Assembly (NCBI GenBank): GCA_031269935.1
Contig: JAISYL010000224.1
Span: 1-39,307, forward strand
DNA length: 39,307 nt
Origin: Planctomycetota bacterium
GTDB taxonomy: Bacteria > Planctomycetota > SZUA-567
Direction: 5' to 3'
The notes under the pieces: generated by a model
What the model was told of the DNA's origin: nothing
Seen by the model: only the letters and a program-made list of their open reading frames with translations
The model's database searches: none
Made by a program: the position numbers and the translations under genes
Shown: positions 739-29,187 of the stretch, one piece after another
Position numbering within the stretch: the first letter of the stretch is position 1
Layout of the letters: every line of letters starts with the position of its first letter

Positions 739-2145
739 TCAGCAGAAAACGTCCCGTTCGCCCGCCCGCACCCTGGCCAGCATGGCCTCGTTTTTGTCCT
801 TTTCCATTGGTTCCATTTCCTCCAGCGCGTCCCGGAGGAGTTGTTCCCCGACTCGCCGGGTTTCGGGGGAGGCGTAGTCCAGCAGGTATTCCTGGAAGGT
901 CGACAGGGCGTTGGGATCGCAATGCCGGCGGATTTCCCCGGGTTTGGCCAAATCCATGAAATCCTTGCCGGTGCGGCCCAGGCGGTAGCAGCCGGTGCAG
1001 AAGGAGGGGATGAGCCCCAATTTCGCCACATCCCGGATAACCTCGTCCAGCGTCCGCTGATCCCCCAGGGAAAATTGCGCCTCGCCGTCGTCCTGAAGCC
1101 CGTCCTCGGAATAGCCGCCGGGGTTGGTGCGGCTGCCCCCGGAAATCTGGCTTACCCCCAGGGCGAAAAGCTCCCTCCGGAGGTTGGCCGTTTCCCTGGT
1201 CGACATGATGATGCCGGTGTAGGGCACGGCCAGGCGGAGGATGGCCACTATTTTCCGGAAATCAAGATCGGACACGGCGGCGGGCGGTTGTTGCGACATG
1301 TCCGATCCCACCGCCGGCTCTATTCGCGGGACGCTGACGGTGTGGGGTCCGACCCCGAACCGTTCCTCCAGGTGGCGGATGTGCTGGAGCATGGCTAAAA
1401 TTTCGTGCCGCCAATCGAACAGGCCGAACAGGATTCCGATGCCGCAATCGCTTATTCCGGCCCGCATGGCCCGATCGAAGGCGGTGACCCGCCATTGATA
1501 ATCCCTTTTCCGGCCGGCCGGATGTACCCGGGCGTAGACGCCGCGATGGTAGGTTTCCTGGAAAAGCTGGTAGGTGCCGATTCCGCTGTCCCGGAGGCGC
1601 CGGAATTCCTCCAGGCTCAAGGGGGCGATGTTGACGTTTACCCGGCGGATTTCCCCGGGCCCGGATTTCACTTCGTAAACGGTTCTTATGGCGTCCAGGA
1701 TGTATTGGAAACCCCGCTGGGCCGGATAGGATTCGCCCGCCACCAGCAACAGGCGCTTGTGCCCGCCCTCGATCAGGATTTTCGTTTCCCGGGCTATTTC
1801 CTCCAGGCCGAGCGCCCGGCGCCCGACCTCGAGGTTCCGGGCCCGGAAGGCGCAATACAGGCATTCGTTGGAACATAGGTTGGATATGTAAAGGGGGGCG
1901 AAAAGAACGATGCGGCGGCCGTAAATTGAATTCTTCACCCGGTTGGCGGCGGTGAAAAGTTCGTCCAGCAACTCCGGATCCGACAAGGGGGTCAGGGCGG
2001 CGACCTGGGGCGAGCTCAATCCCTTGAGTTCCAGCGCCCGGGCCAGGATTTCCCGAACCAGGCCGGGATCGGGCCGGCGGTTTTCCGCCAACAGCCTCTC
2101 CGTTTCGGCCTCGTTTATAAAGGCGTCGGAATCCTCGTCCGGCAT
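739..2145 (-). CDS. hydG: [FeFe]-hydrogenase maturase HydG (tyrosine lyase)
   Basis: Radical SAM enzyme that cleaves tyrosine to p-cresol, CO and cyanide and builds the Fe(CO)2CN synthon for the H-cluster of [FeFe]-hydrogenase. The 468-residue length fits the family. The radical SAM triplet is CSNECLYC (C91, C95, C98). The C-terminal auxiliary-cluster motif CTGC followed 22 residues later by another Cys is the CX2CX22C signature of HydG and separates it from ThiH and other relatives. The C-terminus (GERDVFC) resembles the usual GERDLYF-type ending. HydE, HydF and the hydrogenase are not in the window. It is the last gene of a minus-strand series behind the TPR protein gene and may be cotranscribed with it, although the functions look unrelated. 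The antisense ORFs at 439-1398 and 1405-1878 are shadows of this gene. Confidence 0.95.
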   Translation of the reverse strand: MPDEDSDAFINEAETERLLAENRRPDPGLVREILARALELKGLSSPQVAALTPLSDPELLDELFTAANRVKNSIYGRRIVLFAPLYISNLCSNECLYCAFRARNLEVGRRALGLEEIARETKILIEGGHKRLLLVAGESYPAQRGFQYILDAIRTVYEVKSGPGEIRRVNVNIAPLSLEEFRRLRDSGIGTYQLFQETYHRGVYARVHPAGRKRDYQWRVTAFDRAMRAGISDCGIGILFGLFDWRHEILAMLQHIRHLEERFGVGPHTVSVPRIEPAVGSDMSQQPPAAVSDLDFRKIVAILRLAVPYTGIIMSTRETANLRRELFALGVSQISGGSRTNPGGYSEDGLQDDGEAQFSLGDQRTLDEVIRDVAKLGLIPSFCTGCYRLGRTGKDFMDLAKPGEIRRHCDPNALSTFQEYLLDYASPETRRVGEQLLRDALEEMEPMEKDKNEAMLARVRAGERDVFC

Positions 2146-19024: not shown

Positions 19025-19891
19025 ATGAATAACATGAAAAGGTTTGAATCGCATCCCTGCTTCGCCGGGAATTGCCGGCCGGCCGCCGGGCGGATTCATT
19101 TGCCCGTCAGCCCGGTCTGCAATATCCGTTGTCGTTTTTGCGCCCGGGGGATTACCACCGGGGTTTCGCGGCCGGGAAACGCGGCCCGGGTGGTGACTCC
19201 GGCGGAGGCGATGACGATTCTGGAGCGGGCGCTGATTGTCTGCCCCGAACTCGCGGTGGTGGGAGTTGCCGGTCCCGGGGATCCCCTGGCCAGCGGCCAC
19301 GCCCTGGAAACGCTGACCTTGGCCCGCCAAAGGCATCCGGAGTTGCTTACCTGCCTTAGCACCAACGGGCTGGGACTGCCCGCCAGCCTGCCGGGTTTGA
19401 TCGGGGCCGGGATCGAGACCTTGACCGTGACGGTGAACGCGGTCGATCCGGACATCCTGGAACGGCTGTGCGCGGGGGTGTGGTGGCGGGGGAGCTTTCT
19501 GCCCGGCCGGGCAGGGGCCGGCCGGCTGATCGAGGCCCAGGGCGAGGGCATCCGCCAGGCCCGGGATCTGGGGATGCTTGTCAAGGTCAACTTGGTCCTG
19601 GCCCCCGGGATCAACGACCGGCATGTCGGGGAGGTGGCGCGGACGGCGGCGGAGTGGGGGGCGAGGTATATGAACGTCATTCCCTTGCTTCCCGCCGCCG
19701 AGTTCGCGGCGGCGGCTCCGCCTTCCGCCGAGGCGCTGGCCGCCGCCCGCGCGGCGGTGGCCGGGCATCTGGAGGTGTTCAGGCATTGTCGGCGCTGCCG
19801 GGCCGACGCCTGCGGCGTCCCCGGCGGGGTCGATTACGCCCGGGAACTGTATCGCGAATTCCGCCAGGTGGAGACTTTTTCCCATGGTTGA
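19025..19891 (+). CDS. NifB-like radical SAM protein (MarB-like)
   Basis: 288 residues from ATG 19025; a second ATG at 19034 is also possible. The sequence follows NifB closely: HPCF near the N-terminus, RIHLPVSPVCNIRCRFC with the radical SAM cysteines C32, C36 and C39, then VGVAGPGDPLA, LSTNGLGLP, VTVNAVDP, KVNLVLAPGIND and a C-terminal CRRCRADACG. NifB makes the 8Fe core of nitrogenase cofactors. Oddity: nitrogenase NifB has a Cys and a Glu in the loop between CNYC and SRPG, and here that loop reads ARGITTGVSRPG with neither. The C-terminal NifX domain of many NifB proteins is a separate gene here, overlapping by 8 bases. It probably builds the metallocluster for the downstream D/K pair. 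Confidence 0.85.
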   Translation: MNNMKRFESHPCFAGNCRPAAGRIHLPVSPVCNIRCRFCARGITTGVSRPGNAARVVTPAEAMTILERALIVCPELAVVGVAGPGDPLASGHALETLTLARQRHPELLTCLSTNGLGLPASLPGLIGAGIETLTVTVNAVDPDILERLCAGVWWRGSFLPGRAGAGRLIEAQGEGIRQARDLGMLVKVNLVLAPGINDRHVGEVARTAAEWGARYMNVIPLLPAAEFAAAAPPSAEALAAARAAVAGHLEVFRHCRRCRADACGVPGGVDYARELYREFRQVETFSHG

Positions 19892-20285
19892 GGCGTTGGG
19901 CAAACCGCCCGGCCGGGTGGCGGTCGCCAGCCGGAGCGGAGTGCTGGTGGATGAATGTTTCGGCCGCGCGGCCGGTTACCGGATTTACGAGGCCGCTCCG
20001 GACGGTTACCGGCTGGCGGAAATCCGGCCCGGGCCCGCGCCTTGCCGGGGACAGGCCCACGATCTCCCGAGCCTGGCGGCCGCCGTCGAGTCGGTGAGCG
20101 ACTGTGAAATGGTTTTGGCGGGCCGGATTGGGCCGGAAGCGGTGCGGTTGCTGGCGGGGCGGGGGGTGACGGGCCTGGCGGTCCGGATCGGCATAGACGA
20201 CGCTTTGGAACGTTTGTCCCGGCGGCGGGAACCTCCGTACGGCTGTCGGGCGGACGGCCCGGCAATTGAAAAAAAGGACCATTAA
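19884..20285 (+). CDS. NifX/NifY-type cofactor-carrier domain protein
   Basis: 133 residues of the dinitrogenase iron-molybdenum cofactor biosynthesis family (NifX, NafY, NifB C-terminus). The fold pattern is visible: [25 protein letters not shown], and later [20 protein letters not shown] ahead of TGLAV. These domains bind and carry cofactor precursors to the catalytic protein. The ATG overlaps the NifB-like stop (ATGGTTGA), with GGTGGAG about 10 bases upstream, so the two are translationally coupled, as if a fused NifB-NifX had been split. The stop shares one base with the next ATG (TAATG). The C-terminal tail is charged and probably disordered. Confidence 0.8.
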
Positions 20286-21160
20286 TGGCACGGGAAATAA
20301 AGCAAATCGCCATCTACGGCAAGGGAGGCATCGGCAAGTCGACCACCTCCTCCAACATTAGCGCCGCCCTTTCCAAGCTGGGATACAAGGTGATGCAGGT
20401 GGGCTGCGATCCCAAAAGCGATTCCACCAACACCCTCCGGGAAGGCAAATACATCCCCACCGTTCTGGACACCCTGCGGGCCAAGGGGAAAACCATTCCC
20501 GAGGAGATTGTCTTCAAGGGGTTCAACGGGGTCTACTGCGTGGAGGCCGGCGGTCCGGCCCCGGGGGTCGGCTGCGCCGGCCGCGGCATCATCACGGCGG
20601 TGGAGCAACTCAAGCAACTCAAGGTTTTCGAGAACCTGGGGATAGACGTGGTCATCTACGACGTCCTGGGGGACGTGGTCTGCGGCGGCTTCGCGGTCCC
20701 CATCCGGGAGGGCATCGCCAAGCACGTCTTCACCGTCACCTCCTCCGATTTCATGGCCATCTACGCCGCCAACAATCTTTTCGCCGGGATCCAGAAATAC
20801 AGCGCCAGCGGCGGCGCCCTGCTGGGGGGGATGATTGCCAATTCGATAAACGCCCCCTATTCGCGATCCATAGTCGACGATTTCGCCAGCCGCACCCGGA
20901 CGCGGGTGGTGGAATATATCCCCCGCTCGGTCACCGTCACCCAGGCCGAACTGCGGGGCAAGACCGTCATTGAAACCCAACCGGACTCGGCCCAGGGGAA
21001 AATCTATCTTCGCCTCGCCCAGCGCCTCGCCGATCACGCCGAGTCGAGGACGCCGGCGCCGATGTCGGTCCCGAACCTGCACGAATGGGCCACCGGCTGG
21101 GCGACGGAATTGTTGAAGGTGGAGACGGGGGAGGTGGGCCAGGAGGCCCAGGGCATTTAA
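20285..21160 (+). CDS. NifH-like nitrogenase-like reductase (MarH-like)
   Basis: 291-residue Fe-protein homologue, the ATP-dependent electron donor to the D/K pair. It has the P-loop [10 protein letters not shown] (residues 11-20), CDPKSDSTN, and the two Cys that bridge a [4Fe-4S] cluster between subunits, C97 (GVGCAGRG) and C133 ([14 protein letters not shown]), matching positions 97 and 132 of Azotobacter NifH. The Arg of GCAGRG, the ADP-ribosylation site in NifH, is present. The ATG has AGGA 7 bases upstream and overlaps the previous stop. The low-similarity C-terminus ([17 protein letters not shown]) differs from classical NifH. BchL/ChlL and CfbC are alternatives for isolated NifH-like proteins, but the NifB-like and paired D/K neighbours favour a Mar-type system. 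Confidence 0.88.
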
Positions 21161-21200: not shown

Positions 21201-22133
<933 letters not shown>

Positions 22134-22296
22134 GGGCCGGTCTAAAAATAAGTACTGCCTGTTTAGACAAGGAACCGAGCCGCGGCGGTAAATTTTTGCC
22201 CGTGGTTGGGCAAAAATTTACGAGAGCGGCGAAGTGACGCGGTATAAACCCGCGGGACTTATTTTTGGACGAGCCCCAAGGGTCGGTCTAAAAAAA
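22134..22296. repeat. F1-type palindromic element inside the operon, copy a
   Basis: The outer arms (22134-22154 and 22257-22277) pair at 18 of 21 positions. The central stem is GTAAATTTTTGCCC, loop GTGGTT, then GGGCAAAAATTTAC. The interior (TTAGACAAGGAA, GCGGCG, TGACGCGGTATAAACCCG) matches the F1 elements at 27873, 29199 and 39143, though the outer ends differ. It fills most of the gap between cysK and the NifK-like gene. Confidence 0.75.
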
Positions 22297-22311
22297 AAGA
22301 AGGGTTTCGCC

Positions 22312-23658
22312 ATGACTTACATCGAAAGACCGCGGTTTTCCTGCATGCTGGGGGGAGTGCTGGCCACGGTGAATTCGCTCCCCCGGACCGTCCCCGTGGT
22401 GCACGGGGCCCAGGGTTGCGGGCGCAACCTTTCCAGCGCCTATGCCCAGGGCGGCTATTACGGCGGCGGCTACTGCAACGAACACAGCGTTCCCAGTTCC
22501 AACGTCGACGAATCGGACGTCATCTTCGGGGGGGGGGAAACCCTGGCCAAGGAATTGGCCAATTCCTTCGAAATAATCGACGCCGATCTGTTCGTGATCA
22601 CCACCGCCTGCATGACCGACATCATCGGCGACGACGTCAAGTCGGTTCTGAGCCGCTTTCCGGATCGGCCGCCGTCCATTTTCATCGAAACCGGCGGCTT
22701 CAAGGGCGATTGCTATTTCGGCTACCGCCGGTTCATGGAGGAGCTTTTCCTTCAATACATCCCCCGGGCGGAGAGGGGCGCCGGGGAAGGGAAGCCGCCC
22801 CGGGTCAATCTTCTCGGGCTGCTTCCCGGCTACGATCCTTTTTTCCGGGGCGACCTGGAGGAGATCGATCGGCTGCTGGGCCGGCTGGGAGTGGCCGCGA
22901 CCACCTTCCTCACCCCTGGCCAAACCCTGGCCGGGATCCGGGAGGCCGGGACCGCCGGGTTGAACGTCATCTTCAACCGGGCCCACGGGGAGGAACTGGG
23001 CCGGAATCTGCGGGAGAGCCACGGCATCGACTACTGGCTGGCGGATTTGCCGGTGGGGGCCAAGGCGAGCGGGGAATTCCTGCGGGAGATCGCCCGGCGG
23101 CTGAAGCTCGACCCGGCGGCGGCGGAGCGGGTGGCGCGGAGCGAAACCGGGCGGTACTACGATTACGTCGAACGCCTCTCCCCCCTGGTGGTGGATTTCG
23201 ATTTCCAGAATTACGCGGTGGTGGTGGCCAATTCCACCAACGCCCTTCCCTACGCCAGCTACCTGGACAACGAACTGGGGTGGCTGCCCACCCACGTCTA
23301 CATTACCGATCAGTTGTCGGAGGAGCAACGGGAGGCCCTGCGGACGCGTTTCGGGGAATTGGCCTTTTCGGAAAGGCCGGAACTGGTTTTCGAAACCGAC
23401 ACCCAGAACATCCAGCGCCACCTGGAAACCAGCCGCCCGCAATTCCTTTCCCGGACCTATTACGACCGGATCGAACCGCTTTTCATCCTGGGGTCAACCC
23501 TGGAATACGGATTCGCCGAAAGCCTGAGCGGATTCCACCTGTCGGTGAGCCATCCCGTCATCAACCGCACGGCGGTCGCCAGGGGTTACGCCGGGTACAA
23601 CGGCGGACTCAATCTTCTTTGCGACCTGTCCGATGCCCAGGTAGCCAGAAGGGTCTGA
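22312..23658 (+). CDS. NifK-like nitrogenase component 1 subunit
   Basis: 448 residues from ATG 22312 (MTYIERPRFSCMLGG), with AAGAAGGG about 8 bases upstream; the track start at 22234 lies in the palindromic element and is rejected. Three cysteines sit where NifK binds the P-cluster: C11 (FSCMLGG), C36 (VHGAQGCGRN, like NifK HGSQGC) and C100 (TTACMTDIIGDD, like NifK TTCLSETIGDD). The C11-C36 spacing of 25 equals that in NifK. DVIFGGGETLAKEL follows the family pattern. It is shorter than nitrogenase NifK (about 520), lacking the N-terminal extension. Together with the D-like subunit it should form a D2K2-type reductase. The order K before D is the reverse of nifHDK as I recall it. Confidence 0.85.
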   Translation: MTYIERPRFSCMLGGVLATVNSLPRTVPVVHGAQGCGRNLSSAYAQGGYYGGGYCNEHSVPSSNVDESDVIFGGGETLAKELANSFEIIDADLFVITTACMTDIIGDDVKSVLSRFPDRPPSIFIETGGFKGDCYFGYRRFMEELFLQYIPRAERGAGEGKPPRVNLLGLLPGYDPFFRGDLEEIDRLLGRLGVAATTFLTPGQTLAGIREAGTAGLNVIFNRAHGEELGRNLRESHGIDYWLADLPVGAKASGEFLREIARRLKLDPAAAERVARSETGRYYDYVERLSPLVVDFDFQNYAVVVANSTNALPYASYLDNELGWLPTHVYITDQLSEEQREALRTRFGELAFSERPELVFETDTQNIQRHLETSRPQFLSRTYYDRIEPLFILGSTLEYGFAESLSGFHLSVSHPVINRTAVARGYAGYNGGLNLLCDLSDAQVARRV

Positions 23659-23660
23659 AC

Positions 23661-25232
23661 ATGAAACGCGAATTCGAGGCCGATTTCACCCTGAAAGTGC
23701 CGCCCAGCCGGGAGGCGAGTTGCCGCAACACCGGATACGCCTTCGGCGGCGCCACCCGCGGCTTGGTGGAGTGCGCCGGGAAGGGCTGCCTCAACCAGTG
23801 CGACCGGGAATTCCGGCAGTCCACCAATTGCCAGATGTACGTTTCGTCCCTGATCTCCTTTTCGGTCAAGGATTCGGTGGTGATTTTTCACGGCCCGGTG
23901 GGCTGCGGGGCCCAGGCGCACCTGATCGACTACAGCGTCAAGACCTTCGGCGCCCGGCGGGGGGTGAGGATGTCCGGCGCCCGCTGGTTCAGCACCAACC
24001 TGGACGAGGGCGACGTCATCGGAGGGGGCGAGGCCAAATTGCGCCAGACGATAATCGAGGCCGACCGCCGTTTCCGGCCGACCGCCATCTTCGTCATCAA
24101 TTCCTGCGCCCCGGCGATTATCGGGGACGACCTCGACGAAGTGATAAACAATGTCCAGTCCGAGGTTTCGGCGCCCGTGGTCCCCATCCACAGTCCCGGC
24201 TTCAAGGCCAGGGTGTTTTCCTCCGCCTATGACGTGGTCTATCACGGCATTTTGCAGAAATTCGCCTTCAAGCCCGAGCCCTATCTCGACTACCAGCCGT
24301 TTTTCCGCTCCGATCCCGATTACGAACGGAAAGTCCGGGACTACGAATACCAAAAAAGCCGGACCGTCAACCTGTACAACGCCTGGTCCATCGGCCCCGA
24401 CGACGAGGCCGAGATCCGCCGGCTTCTGGAGGCGCTGGGCTTGAACGTGAGGATTTTCGTCGAGTTCAAGGAACCGGACGAATGGCGCTGGCTCGGCGAA
24501 GCGGCGCTGAACGTCTGCTTTTGCCATGTGCACGATTTGTACTTCGTGGAATTTCTCAAGAAAACCCTGGGAATGCCTTATATCCTGCCCAACATCCCGA
24601 TCGGCCTGTCGGCCACCCGGAATTTCGTCAAGGAAATCGCCGACTTCTTCGGCCTGGGGGAGGAGGCGGAAAGGCTGATCGCCAAGGAGGAGGGGGAGTT
24701 GAAGGCCGCCCTGGAGCCGCTGGCCGCGAAAATCCGGGGGAAAAGGGTGCTGATAAGCGGCGGCTATCTCCGGATCGGGGCCACCGGCCTGTTCGCCAAC
24801 GAATTGGGCCTGAAGGTGGTGGGCTTCCGCAATTTCAACTACGACATGTTCGGCAACAAGCTGTTCGGCGAATTGGAGGAGAAGATAGGAAATGTATCCA
24901 ACGTTATTTCCACCCAGTCCTCGGAACTGTTGAACGAGTTGAAGACCCTGAAGCCGGATTTCGCCATTTCCCATCCCGGGATTGGAATCTGGCTCACCAA
25001 GGCCGGAGTTCCGTCCATCACCCTGTTCGCCCAGCGGTTTCCCTTTTTCGGCTACCGCGGGGCCTACGCCCTGACCCGGCGGATAGTCCGGACCCTGGCC
25101 AACCCCAATTACGCCCGGAACCTGGCCGCCAATGTCCCCCTGCCTTACAAGGAGAAATGGTACGACATGAATCCCTACCATTTTCTGGTCGCCAAGGACG
25201 CCGCCGTCGGGGCGGCGAACGCCGGGGGGTAG
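23661..25232 (+). CDS. NifD-like nitrogenase component 1 subunit (catalytic)
   Basis: 523 residues; the ATG is 2 bases after the NifK-like stop with AGAAGGG 7 bases upstream. P-cluster-type cysteines: C57 (STNCQMYVSS), C82 (IFHGPVGCGAQ) and C149 (NSCAPAIIGDD). The segment AALNVCFCHVHDLYFVEFLK aligns with NifD LNLVHCYRSMNY, so C288 matches the cofactor ligand Cys275. The aligned stretch around NifD His442 (GIPFREMHSWD) reads GVPSITLFAQRF here, with no histidine. The N-terminus has extra cysteines (C21, C38, C43, C47) not found in NifD as I know it. These points indicate a nitrogenase-like reductase with a NifB-derived cluster held differently, not a nitrogen-fixing enzyme. The track ORF from 22416 reads through the upstream gene in another frame. 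Confidence 0.85.
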   Translation: MKREFEADFTLKVPPSREASCRNTGYAFGGATRGLVECAGKGCLNQCDREFRQSTNCQMYVSSLISFSVKDSVVIFHGPVGCGAQAHLIDYSVKTFGARRGVRMSGARWFSTNLDEGDVIGGGEAKLRQTIIEADRRFRPTAIFVINSCAPAIIGDDLDEVINNVQSEVSAPVVPIHSPGFKARVFSSAYDVVYHGILQKFAFKPEPYLDYQPFFRSDPDYERKVRDYEYQKSRTVNLYNAWSIGPDDEAEIRRLLEALGLNVRIFVEFKEPDEWRWLGEAALNVCFCHVHDLYFVEFLKKTLGMPYILPNIPIGLSATRNFVKEIADFFGLGEEAERLIAKEEGELKAALEPLAAKIRGKRVLISGGYLRIGATGLFANELGLKVVGFRNFNYDMFGNKLFGELEEKIGNVSNVISTQSSELLNELKTLKPDFAISHPGIGIWLTKAGVPSITLFAQRFPFFGYRGAYALTRRIVRTLANPNYARNLAANVPLPYKEKWYDMNPYHFLVAKDAAVGAANAGG

Positions 25233-25310: not shown

Positions 25311-26342
25311 ATGTCAAACCGCATTCGAAGGAGTTGGATTTTCGGCCTGGGCCTGTTTCTTCTGGCGGCGGGCCGATTCGCCGCCCCGGCCGGGGAATTG
25401 GTGGTCGGCCGCGGCCAGGGGGCGTCCACCATACCGATGGTGGCCAAGGATTCCGGCTACTTGGCCGACGAGGGCATCAATCCCGACATCATACCCTTCC
25501 TTTCCTCCGCCGACGGCCTTAACGCCCTCAACGTCGGCAAAATCGACGTGGGCCTCGACTATGGAACCTGCGCCCCCCTGATTTACGTGACCGAGGGGGC
25601 GGATTTCGTCATCATCGCCGGCACCCTCAGCGGCGGCCACCCGATTATCGCCAAGAAGGAGAACGCCGCCGTTTACAAGGACATCAAGGGGTTCCGGGGC
25701 AAGACGGCGGGGACTCCCCGGCTTTATACGGCCGACGTGGTTTGGCGCGGCGCCTTGAAGAGGGAGGGCCTGGAAATCGGCCGGGACGTAAAGTTGATCG
25801 AATTCAAGCGCCCCCCCGACGTGGTCGAGGCGGTCAATACCGGTAAAATCGATGTCGGAATCGTTTCCAGCGGGCAGGTCGCCCTCATTGAAAAAAGTCC
25901 CGGTCTGGCCATAGTGCTTTGGAGCAACGATCTGTTCCCCGATCATCCCTGCTGCCGCATCGTCACCACCCGGGAAGTGCTCAAGAACCGCCGTCCGGAA
26001 CTGGTGAAATTCATCAAGGCGCTGTTGCGGGCGGAGAAAAAATTCACCGCCGATCCGGAAACGGGGGTGACGGCGGTGAAAAACCAGTTGGGCATGGACG
26101 ACGATCTGGTCCGCAGCCTGGTCCTGGAGCCGCATTCGAAACTGGCGGTGGATCCCAACACCAAGGCGGTGGTGGAAATGTGGAACTACATGAACGACAT
26201 CGGATTCATCAAATCCGACCTAGATCCCCGGACCCTGATCGACACCTCGCTGTACCGGCAGGCCCTGGACGAGGTTAAAAAGGAATACCCCGATCCCTTC
26301 TGGGATGTCCTGGAAGCCCGTTTCCAGGCCCAGAACGGGTAG
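25311..26342 (+). CDS. ABC-type solute-binding protein, SsuA/NMT1-like
   Basis: 343 residues with an N-terminal signal (RRSWIFGLGLFLLAAGRFAA, cleaved near APAGE). The SsuA/THI5/NMT1 fold is visible in VVGRGQGASTIPMVAKDSGY, LADEGI, LNALNVGKIDVGLDYGTCAP and VVEAVNTGKIDVGIVSSGQV. Relatives bind sulfonates, taurine, nitrate or pyrimidines. AAGGAG precedes the ATG by about 6 bases. It follows the D-like gene by 78 bases on the same strand, so it probably recruits the reductase substrate or a sulfur source. No cognate permease or ATPase gene is in the window, so it must use a transporter encoded elsewhere. Confidence 0.87.
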   Translation: MSNRIRRSWIFGLGLFLLAAGRFAAPAGELVVGRGQGASTIPMVAKDSGYLADEGINPDIIPFLSSADGLNALNVGKIDVGLDYGTCAPLIYVTEGADFVIIAGTLSGGHPIIAKKENAAVYKDIKGFRGKTAGTPRLYTADVVWRGALKREGLEIGRDVKLIEFKRPPDVVEAVNTGKIDVGIVSSGQVALIEKSPGLAIVLWSNDLFPDHPCCRIVTTREVLKNRRPELVKFIKALLRAEKKFTADPETGVTAVKNQLGMDDDLVRSLVLEPHSKLAVDPNTKAVVEMWNYMNDIGFIKSDLDPRTLIDTSLYRQALDEVKKEYPDPFWDVLEARFQAQNG

Positions 26343-26481: not shown

Positions 26482-26550
26482 GCCATTTCTCTTTCCCGTT
26501 CAAACCCGGGGCTTCCCTTGCCCCGGGTTTGCCATATAATTCCTCTCGGA

Positions 26551-26648
26551 GGACTTTTAAGGATAATCGAGCCAACCGCCCCTCGGTTTTTCTTAAAGTT
26601 TCAAGCGCTTTTGTTTCAATGGGTTGATTTTCGTCAAGCCGGGTTGAA
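26551..26648. repeat. F2 dispersed repeat, copy c
   Basis: An imperfect palindrome CTTTTAAGGATAATCGAGCC / CCTCGGTTTTTCTTAAAG around CAACCGCC, followed by TTTGTTTCAATGGGTTGATT and a GTCAAGC end. Same two-part layout as copies a and d. Confidence 0.65.
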
Positions 26649-26724
26649 ACCATGGGTTTGTCATGGTTCATGGCGGCAATCAAAAGCCCTCTCAAAGGTC
26701 CGGGACGCGAAAGGATTCCTATAT

Positions 26725-27873
26725 ATGCGACGGGAAACGTTAGTGGTCCGGGCCGGGTTGCATAGCGACCCCGTCACCGGCGCCGTGTCGGCGCCCATCC
26801 ACCAATCCGCCACCTTTGTACACACCCGCTTGCCGCCCCCGGGCGACAACAGCGGCTATGCCTATTCCCGCACCTCCAACCCCACCCGGACCGCCCTGGA
26901 AAAGTCCTTGGCGGCCCTGGACGGGGGCGCCCGCGCCTGCGCCTTCTCCTCGGGCCTGGCGGCCCTGGACGCGGTTCTCCGCCTGCTCGGTCCCTTGGCC
27001 GGGAAACGTTTGATCGTCACCGAGGACCCTTATGGGGGAACCGTCCGGCTGCTGGACAAATTCTTCCGGCCGATCGGCCTGGACACGGTTTACATCGACA
27101 CCTCCGACACCGGGGCGGTGGAGCGGGAGTTGGAGCGCGGGGCGCTCGCCCTGCTTCTTGAAATTCCGTCCAATCCCCTCCTGCGGGTGGCGGACGTGGA
27201 CGCGCTGGCGGCGGCGGCGAAGCGGGCGGGGGCGTTATTGATCGTCGACAACACCTTTCTCACCCCCCACCTGTTCAGACCTCTGGAACATGGGGCCGAC
27301 CTGGTGGTGTACAGCGCCACCAAATACCTGGGCGGCCACAACGACTTGGTGGCCGGGGCGGCGGTCTGCCGTACCGAGGAGATGGGAACGCGCCTGGCCC
27401 TGGTCCAGAACGCGGTGGGCGCCGTCCTCGGCCCCATGGATTCCTGGCTGCTCCTGCGCGGCTTGAAAACCCTGGCCGTGCGCCTGGATCGCCAGCAGGA
27501 AAACGCCCGGGGGGTTGCCGAGTTCCTCCGCCGATGTCCCCGGGTGTCCAGAGTGCGCTACCCCGGCTTGCCCGGGGACCCCGGGCACGAGCGGCTCCGG
27601 CGGCAGGCCTCGGGCTTCGGCGCCATGGTTTCCTTCGAGGTCGAGGATCCGGAGCGGGTGGAGGCCATCCTCACCGGAACGAAGATCTTTTCCTTCGCCG
27701 AGAGCCTGGGGGGGGTGGAATCGTTGATTACCTTCCCCGTTCGCCAGACCCATGCCGATATCGAACCCGCCGAGCGCGAACGCCTCGGCATCACCGACCG
27801 CCTGCTTCGGCTGTCGGTGGGAATAGAAAACCTTGAGGACTTGCTGGAGGATTTGGAACAGGCGCTGGCCTGA
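26725..27873 (+). CDS. Cys/Met-metabolism PLP enzyme, cystathionine gamma-synthase/lyase family (copy 1)
   Basis: 382 residues from ATG 26725 (AAAGGA about 10 bases upstream). Fold-type I family motifs: YSRTSNPTRTALE, the PLP-stacking region FSSGLAALDAVL, EIPSNPLLRVAD, IVDNTFLTP with the PLP aspartate, and the PLP lysine K200 in SATKYLGGH. The family covers cystathionine gamma-synthase, beta- and gamma-lyases, methionine gamma-lyase and O-acetylhomoserine sulfhydrylase, which cannot be told apart by eye. Next to a putative C-S reductase, direct sulfhydrylation with sulfide or methanethiol (MetY-like, as described for methionine recovery in Mar organisms) is attractive. The length (382) is nearer to CGS/CGL than to MetY (about 430). 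An F1 element starts at its stop codon. Confidence 0.87.
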   Translation: MRRETLVVRAGLHSDPVTGAVSAPIHQSATFVHTRLPPPGDNSGYAYSRTSNPTRTALEKSLAALDGGARACAFSSGLAALDAVLRLLGPLAGKRLIVTEDPYGGTVRLLDKFFRPIGLDTVYIDTSDTGAVERELERGALALLLEIPSNPLLRVADVDALAAAAKRAGALLIVDNTFLTPHLFRPLEHGADLVVYSATKYLGGHNDLVAGAAVCRTEEMGTRLALVQNAVGAVLGPMDSWLLLRGLKTLAVRLDRQQENARGVAEFLRRCPRVSRVRYPGLPGDPGHERLRRQASGFGAMVSFEVEDPERVEAILTGTKIFSFAESLGGVESLITFPVRQTHADIEPAERERLGITDRLLRLSVGIENLEDLLEDLEQALA

Positions 27874-28041: not shown

Positions 28042-29187
28042 ATGGATTATCATACCTTGCTTGTGCACGCCGGCTGGGATCGCGACCCGGTCACCGGCGC
28101 CTCCAGCATCCCGGTTTACCACGCCAGCACCTTTGATCAGGACGATCCCGATCAACCGGGCGAATACGATTATTCCCGGAGCGGCAACCCCACCCGGGCG
28201 GCCCTGGAAAAGGCCCTGGCGGAATTGGAGGGCGGGGCGGCCGCCTTCGCCTTCGCCTCCGGCATGGCGGCGGTGTCGGCGGCGCTGATGCTTTTCCAGC
28301 CCGGGGATCACCTGATTGTCGGCCTGGACGTTTACGGGGGGACCTTCCGGGCCTTGACCCGGGTTTTCCGGCGCTGGGGCCTGACCGCGTCCTTTGTCGA
28401 CACCGGCGATCCCGCCAATATCCGGGCCGCCCTGACCCCGGCCACCCGGGGAATCTGGATTGAGACTCCTTCCAATCCGCTTCTCCGCATAACCGATCTG
28501 GCGGCGGTGGCGGAACTGGCCCGGGAACACGGGCTTTTGGCCATAGCCGACGGCACCTTCGCCACCCCTTTTCTGCAAAGGCCCCTGGACTTCGGCTTCG
28601 ACCTGGTCGTCCACAGCGCCACCAAGTTCCTGAACGGCCACTCGGATGTCCTGGCGGGGATCGCGGCGGCCCGGACGGAGGAACTGGGGCGACGGGTCAA
28701 ATTCGTGCAAAACGCCCTGGGCGCGGTCCTGGGCGTCCAGGATTGCTGGCTGCTTCTCCGGGGGCTGAAGACCCTGGGGGTGCGGCTGGCCCGGGAACAG
28801 GCCACGGCCGGATGGCTGGCGGAACGGCTGGAGGAACTCCCGGAGGTGACCCGGGTTTATTATCCCCTTCTGGCCGGGCATCCCGGGCGGGAAATCCATC
28901 TCCGGCAGGCGGCGGGGGGCGGGGCGGTGCTGTCGTTCGAATTGGCCGGCGGGGAGGCCGCCCGGGCCTTCCTCAAGCGCCTACGGCTGCCGCTCCTGGC
29001 GGTGAGCCTGGGCGGGGTGGAAAGCATCATGACCTATCCCGTGACCATGTCCCACGCCTCCATGCCCAGGGAGGAGAGGGAGCGGCGCGGCATCAGCGAT
29101 CGCCTGGTCCGGCTGTCGGTGGGCCTGGAGGCGGGGGAGGATCTGCTTGCCGACATCAAGCGGGCGCTGAGGCCGGAAGGAAGGTGA
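28042..29187 (+). CDS. Cys/Met-metabolism PLP enzyme, cystathionine gamma-synthase/lyase family (copy 2)
   Basis: 381 residues; the ATG has GAGGGAG about 8 bases upstream. Motifs: YDYSRSGNPTRAALE, FASGMAAVSAAL, ETPSNPLLRITD, the PLP aspartate in AIADGTFATP (usual DNTFATP has Asn where this has Gly) and the PLP lysine K195 in SATKFLNGHSD. It is clearly paralogous to the gene just upstream but not a recent copy. GVESIMTYPVTMSHASMP resembles cystathionine gamma-synthase and beta-lyase enzymes. The pair may form a synthase/lyase couple moving sulfur between cysteine and homocysteine; which does which cannot be read here. It sits between two F1 elements. Confidence 0.87.
   Translation: MDYHTLLVHAGWDRDPVTGASSIPVYHASTFDQDDPDQPGEYDYSRSGNPTRAALEKALAELEGGAAAFAFASGMAAVSAALMLFQPGDHLIVGLDVYGGTFRALTRVFRRWGLTASFVDTGDPANIRAALTPATRGIWIETPSNPLLRITDLAAVAELAREHGLLAIADGTFATPFLQRPLDFGFDLVVHSATKFLNGHSDVLAGIAAARTEELGRRVKFVQNALGAVLGVQDCWLLLRGLKTLGVRLAREQATAGWLAERLEELPEVTRVYYPLLAGHPGREIHLRQAAGGGAVLSFELAGGEAARAFLKRLRLPLLAVSLGGVESIMTYPVTMSHASMPREERERRGISDRLVRLSVGLEAGEDLLADIKRALRPEGR

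Follow-up and report, generated by a model that had tools for sequence, protein, structure and literature searches.

A branch of NifB-like radical SAM proteins with an altered metal-binding loop and a conserved FSHG tail in nitrogenase-like gene clusters

In resting NifB, a loop cysteine (C62 in MtNifB) ligates the unique iron of the radical-SAM cluster and a loop glutamate (E65) caps the K1 cluster (PMC9692996). Mutants suggest that the two residues form an off-switch against premature SAM binding, and the cysteine is displaced when the fused K cluster binds (PMC9692996). Within the window, a stretch of 39,307 nucleotides from the draft genome of a Planctomycetota gut bacterium (GCA_031269935.1, contig JAISYL010000224.1), we found a gene for a NifB-like protein that has neither residue and that ends in FSHG (Table 1). 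The locus raises the question of whether such a protein can still build a nitrogenase-type cluster and, if so, for which enzyme.

Table 1. Coordinates of the NifB-like gene, its altered loop and tail, and the downstream genes in the window.
Feature	Position	Strand	Basis
NifB-like radical SAM protein, 288 aa	19025..19891	+	Translation; TIGR01290 score; relatives 6y1x and 7bi7
Altered loop ARGITTGVSRPG, residues 40-51, without loop Cys and Glu	19142..19177	+	Translation, alignment
C-terminal FSHG tail, residues 285-288, clade-conserved, absent from canonical NifB	19877..19888	+	Alignment
NifX/NafY-like cluster-binding protein	19884..20285	+	PF02579; start overlaps end of NifB-like gene
Nitrogenase-like Fe protein (NifH homologue)	20285..21160	+	PF00142 325 bits; TIGR01287 384.7 bits, just below the 394.35 cut-off
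cysK, cysteine synthase A	21201..22133	+	TIGR01139 439.7 bits, above cut-off
Nitrogenase-like K subunit, best solved relative MarK	22312..23658	+	Three P-cluster Cys conserved
Nitrogenase-like D subunit, best solved relative MarD	23661..25232	+	Three P-cluster Cys and Cys270/His429 equivalents kept; Arg428 not
ABC substrate-binding protein, NMT1/SsuA family	25311..26342	+	Domain search
Cys/Met-metabolism PLP enzyme, cystathionine gamma-lyase/synthase type	26518..27873	+	PF01053
Second Cys/Met-metabolism PLP enzyme, cystathionine beta/gamma-lyase type	28042..29187	+	PF01053

The window protein and its loop

The product reads CNIRCRFC-ARGITTGVSRPG where NifB carries a NRKYDCANESRPG-type loop. 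The initial annotation had reported that the loop Cys and Glu are both gone, and this was confirmed by translation and by alignment to solved NifB structures, since the loops of both 6y1x and 7bi7 contain the two residues and the window protein contains neither. The loop had also been described as one residue shorter, which holds against Methanothrix NifB (CIRDFDCVNESRPG, 6y1x) but not against M. thermautotrophicus NifB (CTRDINECERRPG, 7bi7), where the length is equal. Methanothermobacter NifB is counted among the experimentally proven NifB proteins (PMC5715403); shortness alone is thus harmless, and the loss of Cys and Glu is the real point.

The remaining motifs were rightly said to be retained, and HPCF, CNIRCRFC, AGPGDPL, TVTVN and CRRCRADACG are all found in the translation. 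These supply the HPC motif (H10-P11-C12), the Cx3Cx2C radical-SAM motif (C32, C36, C39), AGPG with TxTxN, and Cx2CRxDAxG of the published NifB fingerprint, and the ExRP element of that fingerprint is VSRP in the window protein (PMC5715403). The cysteine equivalent to C62, which caps the radical-SAM cluster, is missing. Against the TIGR01290 nifB equivalog model, which also covers a NifX-like domain that is here encoded by a separate gene, the window protein scores 229.5 bits and three clade members score 242-273, below the NCBIfam cut-off of 343.65. By sequence, the closest solved proteins are 6y1x and 7bi7, and a Foldseek search by fold likewise placed NifB structures at ranks 1-5. The NifB proteins of M. 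thermautotrophicus (7bi7, 7jma, 7jmb) and Methanothrix thermoacetophila (6y1x) have a like fold and approximately 39-43% identity over the aligned part, and share the K-cluster ligands, the radical-SAM motif and GPGD/E with the window protein; unlike it, they keep the loop Cys and Glu and show no FSHG in the aligned stretches. Because the protein lacks the ExRP motif and the loop Cys and scores below the family threshold, we do not claim NifB proper, and judge a working NifB-like protein to be likely.

The window protein is under purifying selection, with a dN/dS of about 0.21 against two sister species (0.219/1.027 and 0.266/1.223), both known from Planctomycetota metagenome bins. Related Cys-less loops occur in both sister species and, together with the dN/dS value and a Cys loss common to a supported clade, this argues that the altered loop is neither a chance event nor an assembly error. 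AlphaFold2 models of the protein have pLDDT values below 50 exactly at the loop and the tail and are unreliable there.

A branch of proteins ending in FSHG

A genome scan queried with the three sister proteins returned relatives in Ruminiclostridium hungatei, Treponema and Spirochaetaceae, and a plasmid search added pTS2 of Treponema saccharophilum. A scan of viral contigs gave no matches. In profile searches every clade member but one scores 389 bits or more, with nearly all reaching the profile end, whereas canonical proteins score at most 343 bits with alignments ending near position 270. The sole clade member under 389 bits (L112, 338 bits) is a fragment with its N-terminus cut off. By these searches, the high-scoring class is present in 43 of 200 Treponemataceae genomes, approximately 20 of 391 clostridial genomes and three of 392 Planctomycetota genomes, all three of the window's genus.

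None of the 65 distinct FSHG-ending proteins has a Cys at the usual loop place, whereas a loop Cys is present in 36 of 37 non-FSHG NifB-type proteins. The loop Glu (ExRP) is kept in 57 of the 65, with the window's genus among those that lost it, and four have a Cys immediately following the first Arg of the loop (KRC, RRC). Several separate losses or shifts of the Glu occurred within the branch: it is lost in the window protein and in G002, shifted in G004 and missing or changed in five further proteins (L092, L097, L108, L109, L155). Thus the Cys loss extends across the clade, whereas only a few lineages, the window's genus among them, have lost the Glu. Because the loop motif scan demanded RP, two members with CPG in place of RPG were read by hand: L157 has an EQCPG loop, with a Cys after the Glu rather than at the usual place, together with the FSHG tail, and L160 has NEMCPG, again with Cys after Glu, and ends in CNNVCG.

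In a tree built by a quick method with the loop columns excluded, and with SH-aLRT values rather than bootstraps as support, the FSHG proteins formed one side of a branch (SH-aLRT 98). The window protein and its two sisters grouped together (SH-aLRT 100) and were placed near Methanothermobacter NifB and the Mar-type B protein of Chlorohelix. These comparisons point to a widespread, monophyletic branch that is linked to sulfur metabolism and lacks the loop Cys.

Every one of 53 aligned FSHG proteins has the tail residues F, S and H, and the 35 others lack them; since the 53 were selected for an FSHG end, this conservation is partly by construction. Independent of that selection, nearly all the high-scoring members extend to the profile end, and L160 is the sole clade member without FSHG among those read. 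The tail is also kept in L047 and L048, where the next matched gene starts downstream, and its conservation is therefore not a by-product of the overlap with the next gene.

In NifB, the ligands of the fused K cluster are the Cys of HPC, the His of GR-x-H, the Cys of C-STNG and two C-terminal Cys, which are C18, H31, C115, C260 and C263 in Mth numbering (PMC9692996). Their equivalents in the window protein (C12, H25, C110, C255 and C258) are all present, and these positions are conserved in 100% of the 53 FSHG proteins and in 97-100% of the 35 canonical NifB proteins. The lost loop residues had been credited with helping to bind the 4Fe precursor clusters; this is right for the loop as a metal-binding element and for the Glu, which sits on K1, but the Cys sits on the radical-SAM cluster (PMC9692996). 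That the clusters might be bound or fused differently is not implied by the loss, as all fused-cluster ligands are conserved. Since the K-cluster ligands are kept and the lost residues cap the resting state, the change would affect the control of SAM access rather than cluster holding, the gating of SAM by the loop being itself a model drawn from few structures and mutants.

A compensating ligand was sought in the alignment and none is proven, with the invariant FSHG tail and cysteines specific to the clade as candidates. C17 (HPCFxGxC, in all three sister species) was set aside as a compensating Cys, as a Cys is also found near HPC in canonical clostridial NifB and is absent from most FSHG proteins. 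The CRADAC cysteine, C263 of the window protein, occurs in 31 of the 65 FSHG proteins but in none of the 37 others, and is thus typical rather than required. Among cysteines that are rare in canonical NifB, C73 (19241-19243) is found in 92% and C149 (19469-19471) in 81% of FSHG-type B proteins, and the site of A235 (19727-19729), where the window protein has no Cys, is Cys in 94%.

Gene neighborhood, partner enzyme and known systems

Within flanks of about 1.5 kb, 31 of 49 FSHG loci contain cysK and none of 32 other loci does; 47 of the 49 have a nitrogenase-like H, K, D or X gene. A clostridial locus (L147) has the exact window order of B-X-H-cysK-K-D-binding protein. A single B gene accompanies two D/K pairs in T. 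saccharophilum and in L143, as expected of a generic cluster maker. The T. saccharophilum plasmid region (pTS2, L051, 6486-25482) carries, besides one FSHG-type B and one H, two D/K pairs that differ from each other, an ABC transporter and three NifX-like proteins.

Identity to the sister species is 85% for the window H and 70% for B, and falls to 54% for cysK, 40% for K and 36% for D; the window cysK is 69-70% identical to treponemal copies. Compared with L037, L048, L143 and L147, the operon (21201-25232) looks mosaic. B and H appear to be retained while cysK, K and D are swapped, as would suit a generic cluster maker. Between cysK and the K-like gene lies a perfect inverted repeat, TAAATTTTTGCCC-GTGGTT-GGGCAAAAATTTA (22189-22220), possibly a regulatory hairpin, and two copies of GGTCTAAAAA flank it at a greater distance.

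The source genome also has a canonical nif set with a fused NifN-NifB whose loop reads CVRDFSCPNESRPG. No second, canonical NifB was found in 31 of the 43 FSHG-positive Treponemataceae genomes, which are drafts, and the FSHG-type B seems to be the only NifB of those 31. On the same contig as the window operon, a HydG-type radical SAM maturase (739-2145, minus strand; TIGR03955 above cut-off) suggests that the organism has an FeFe hydrogenase.

The partner D and K subunits together keep all six P-cluster cysteines. In MarD, Cys270 and His429 hold the Fe8S9C cluster, such two-point attachment has been argued to require the carbide, and Arg428 has been called a Mar hallmark (PMC12552129). The window D has the equivalents of Cys270 and His429 and has S-H, without Arg, in place of the Arg428-His429 pair; its nearest relatives likewise lack Arg428, and some FSHG-type B proteins, as in R. 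hungatei, accompany Mar-like D/K proteins with the R-H pair. Since these ligands are kept, the partner D/K can most likely carry an Fe8S9C cluster, for which the B protein would be the natural source.

We also considered whether the loss of Cys and Glu is a clade feature of Mar-type NifB, a question raised by the initial annotation, and it is not. R. rubrum MarB reportedly retains all conserved NifB motifs (PMC12552129), ExRP being the one missing from the window protein, and the B protein of the Chlorohelix Mar-type cluster, whose plasmid-borne D protein is 47% identical to R. rubrum MarD, reads CVRKYDCPNENRPG, with loop Cys and Glu kept and no FSHG. A Mar-type clade feature was thus ruled out; the loss marks another branch, cysK-linked and ending in FSHG. 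The MarB systems of methylthio-alkane reductase (R. rubrum MarBHDK; Chlorohelix L052, L056 and L057) resemble the window in joining B-X-H-D-K to Cys/Met PLP enzymes, and MarD and MarK are the nearest solved structures to the window D/K; the window differs in its loop and tail, in the missing Arg428 of D and in having cysK as marker neighbor.

Clusters with CysK, MetY and group IV-A nitrogenase-like genes have been tied to sulfur metabolism and Mlp methyltransferases (PMC10418091). The L143 cluster, where nitrogenase-like H/D/K are neighbored by CysK, MetY and a URO-D-type methyltransferase, is like these group IV-A clusters and the Nfa system of Endomicrobium; that the FSHG clusters belong to group IV-A is a lead, taken from neighbor genes alone. 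The isethionate reductase IsrBHDK likewise pairs a radical SAM protein with nitrogenase-like HDK in sulfur assimilation, but IsrB is unlike NifB beyond the radical-SAM motif, and Isr D proteins have one P-cluster Cys and no FeMo-co ligands (PMC11423573). All three P-cluster Cys are present in the window D, as are the cofactor Cys and a His, and these ligands exclude an Isr identity.

R. hungatei also encodes a third NifB-like type (L141, 8699-13353) beside nitrogenase-like H-D-K and apparent molybdenum-cofactor genes. Its loop, RIGISSDAQRPG, has no Cys and no ExRP Glu, and the protein has no FSHG tail; in its relatives L162 and L163 a loop Cys is kept and precedes Asp (SKCDIRPG) or Glu (SKCEIRPG).

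Possible roles of the altered protein

The window protein is probably a functional NifB-type maturase that makes a NifB-co-like 8Fe cluster for the adjacent H/D/K proteins, with the resting-state SAM gate missing or rebuilt. Its setting would be a sulfur-assimilation island that also encodes CysK and PLP enzymes of Cys/Met metabolism. The loop Cys would have been lost once, in the common ancestor of the FSHG branch, and the Glu later in the window's lineage, altering the gate that holds SAM out until K1 and K2 are both loaded and leaving the residues that hold the fused cluster untouched. This reading is argued for by the fully conserved fused-cluster ligands, the low dN/dS, the supported clade, the retained D/K cluster ligands, the Treponemataceae genomes without canonical NifB and the linkage to cysK. 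From these observations we infer that the product is NifB-co, that its gating is changed, that the reductase it serves cleaves C-S bonds and that the tail has a role. Counting against a maturase are the failed ExRP fingerprint and TIGR01290 cut-off, and the canonical NifN-NifB of the same genome, which could supply NifB-co. We know of no activity for any FSHG member.

It is possible, though not our favored view, that the FSHG tail has replaced the loop, with its Ser/His or the C-terminal carboxylate capping the radical-SAM or a K cluster and the gating rebuilt, which would refine the maturase reading more than oppose it. In lipoyl synthase a C-terminal serine ligates an auxiliary cluster, a precedent for a tail ligand. 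The invariance of F, S and H, their retention where no overlap is seen, and the loop Cys of the one member with a CNNVCG tail fit such a replacement. However, Cys loss and tail gain lie on one branch and amount to a single event whose coupling is not demonstrable, and the conservation follows in part from the choice of proteins; moreover, R. hungatei L063 lost both loop residues and gained no FSHG, L157 combines a loop Cys with FSHG, and the tail is not resolved in either AlphaFold2 model. A re-wired NifB in which a C-terminal tail ligand takes over from the loop gate, giving NifB-co by a differently timed reaction or a distinct 8Fe cluster for sulfur-scavenging nitrogenase-like enzymes, is a somewhat doubtful, tentative proposal.

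Other readings depart further from a NifB-co maturase. A different product, such as a fused but carbide-free 8Fe cluster or a methylated cluster serving a reductase with a requirement other than Fe8S9C, would fit the changes in loop, tail and several clade-specific residues and the missing Arg428 of the window D and its nearest relatives (PMC12552129), yet it is improbable given that the fused-cluster ligands and the radical-SAM motif are all kept, that D keeps both residues whose attachment is argued to need carbide (PMC12552129), and that R. hungatei pairs an FSHG-type B with Mar-like D/K having the R-H pair. The IsrB protein of Rhodobacter capsulatus demonstrates that a radical SAM protein beside nitrogenase-like HDK need not be NifB-like (PMC11423573), and the window protein might by analogy build no cluster and act on substrate or activate the reductase, as considered for IsrB; this is very unlikely, as IsrB shares only the radical-SAM motif with NifB and IsrD lacks most cluster ligands (PMC11423573), whereas the window protein has every K-cluster ligand and its D/K every ligand. 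Finally, the canonical NifB in the genome allows for a decaying, redundant duplicate of NifN-NifB, an idea that is hardly credible because it is contradicted by purifying selection, by an operon conserved across phyla and by the many genomes in which the FSHG type is the only NifB found.

In conclusion, the feature is real and selected, and a Cys-less branch of NifB keeps all known fused-cluster ligands. The carbide core of every nitrogenase is made by NifB, and an active question is how the enzyme excludes SAM until both precursors have been loaded. Ready-made proteins for testing whether the gate is needed are found in this natural clade, which has no Cys at the proposed gate and includes some lineages lacking both Cys and Glu. 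The clade also marks nitrogenase-like, sulfur-linked gene clusters that have their own maturase, and in gut genomes a simple sequence test, an FSHG end and no loop Cys, separates it from the NifB of nitrogenase and of Mar systems.
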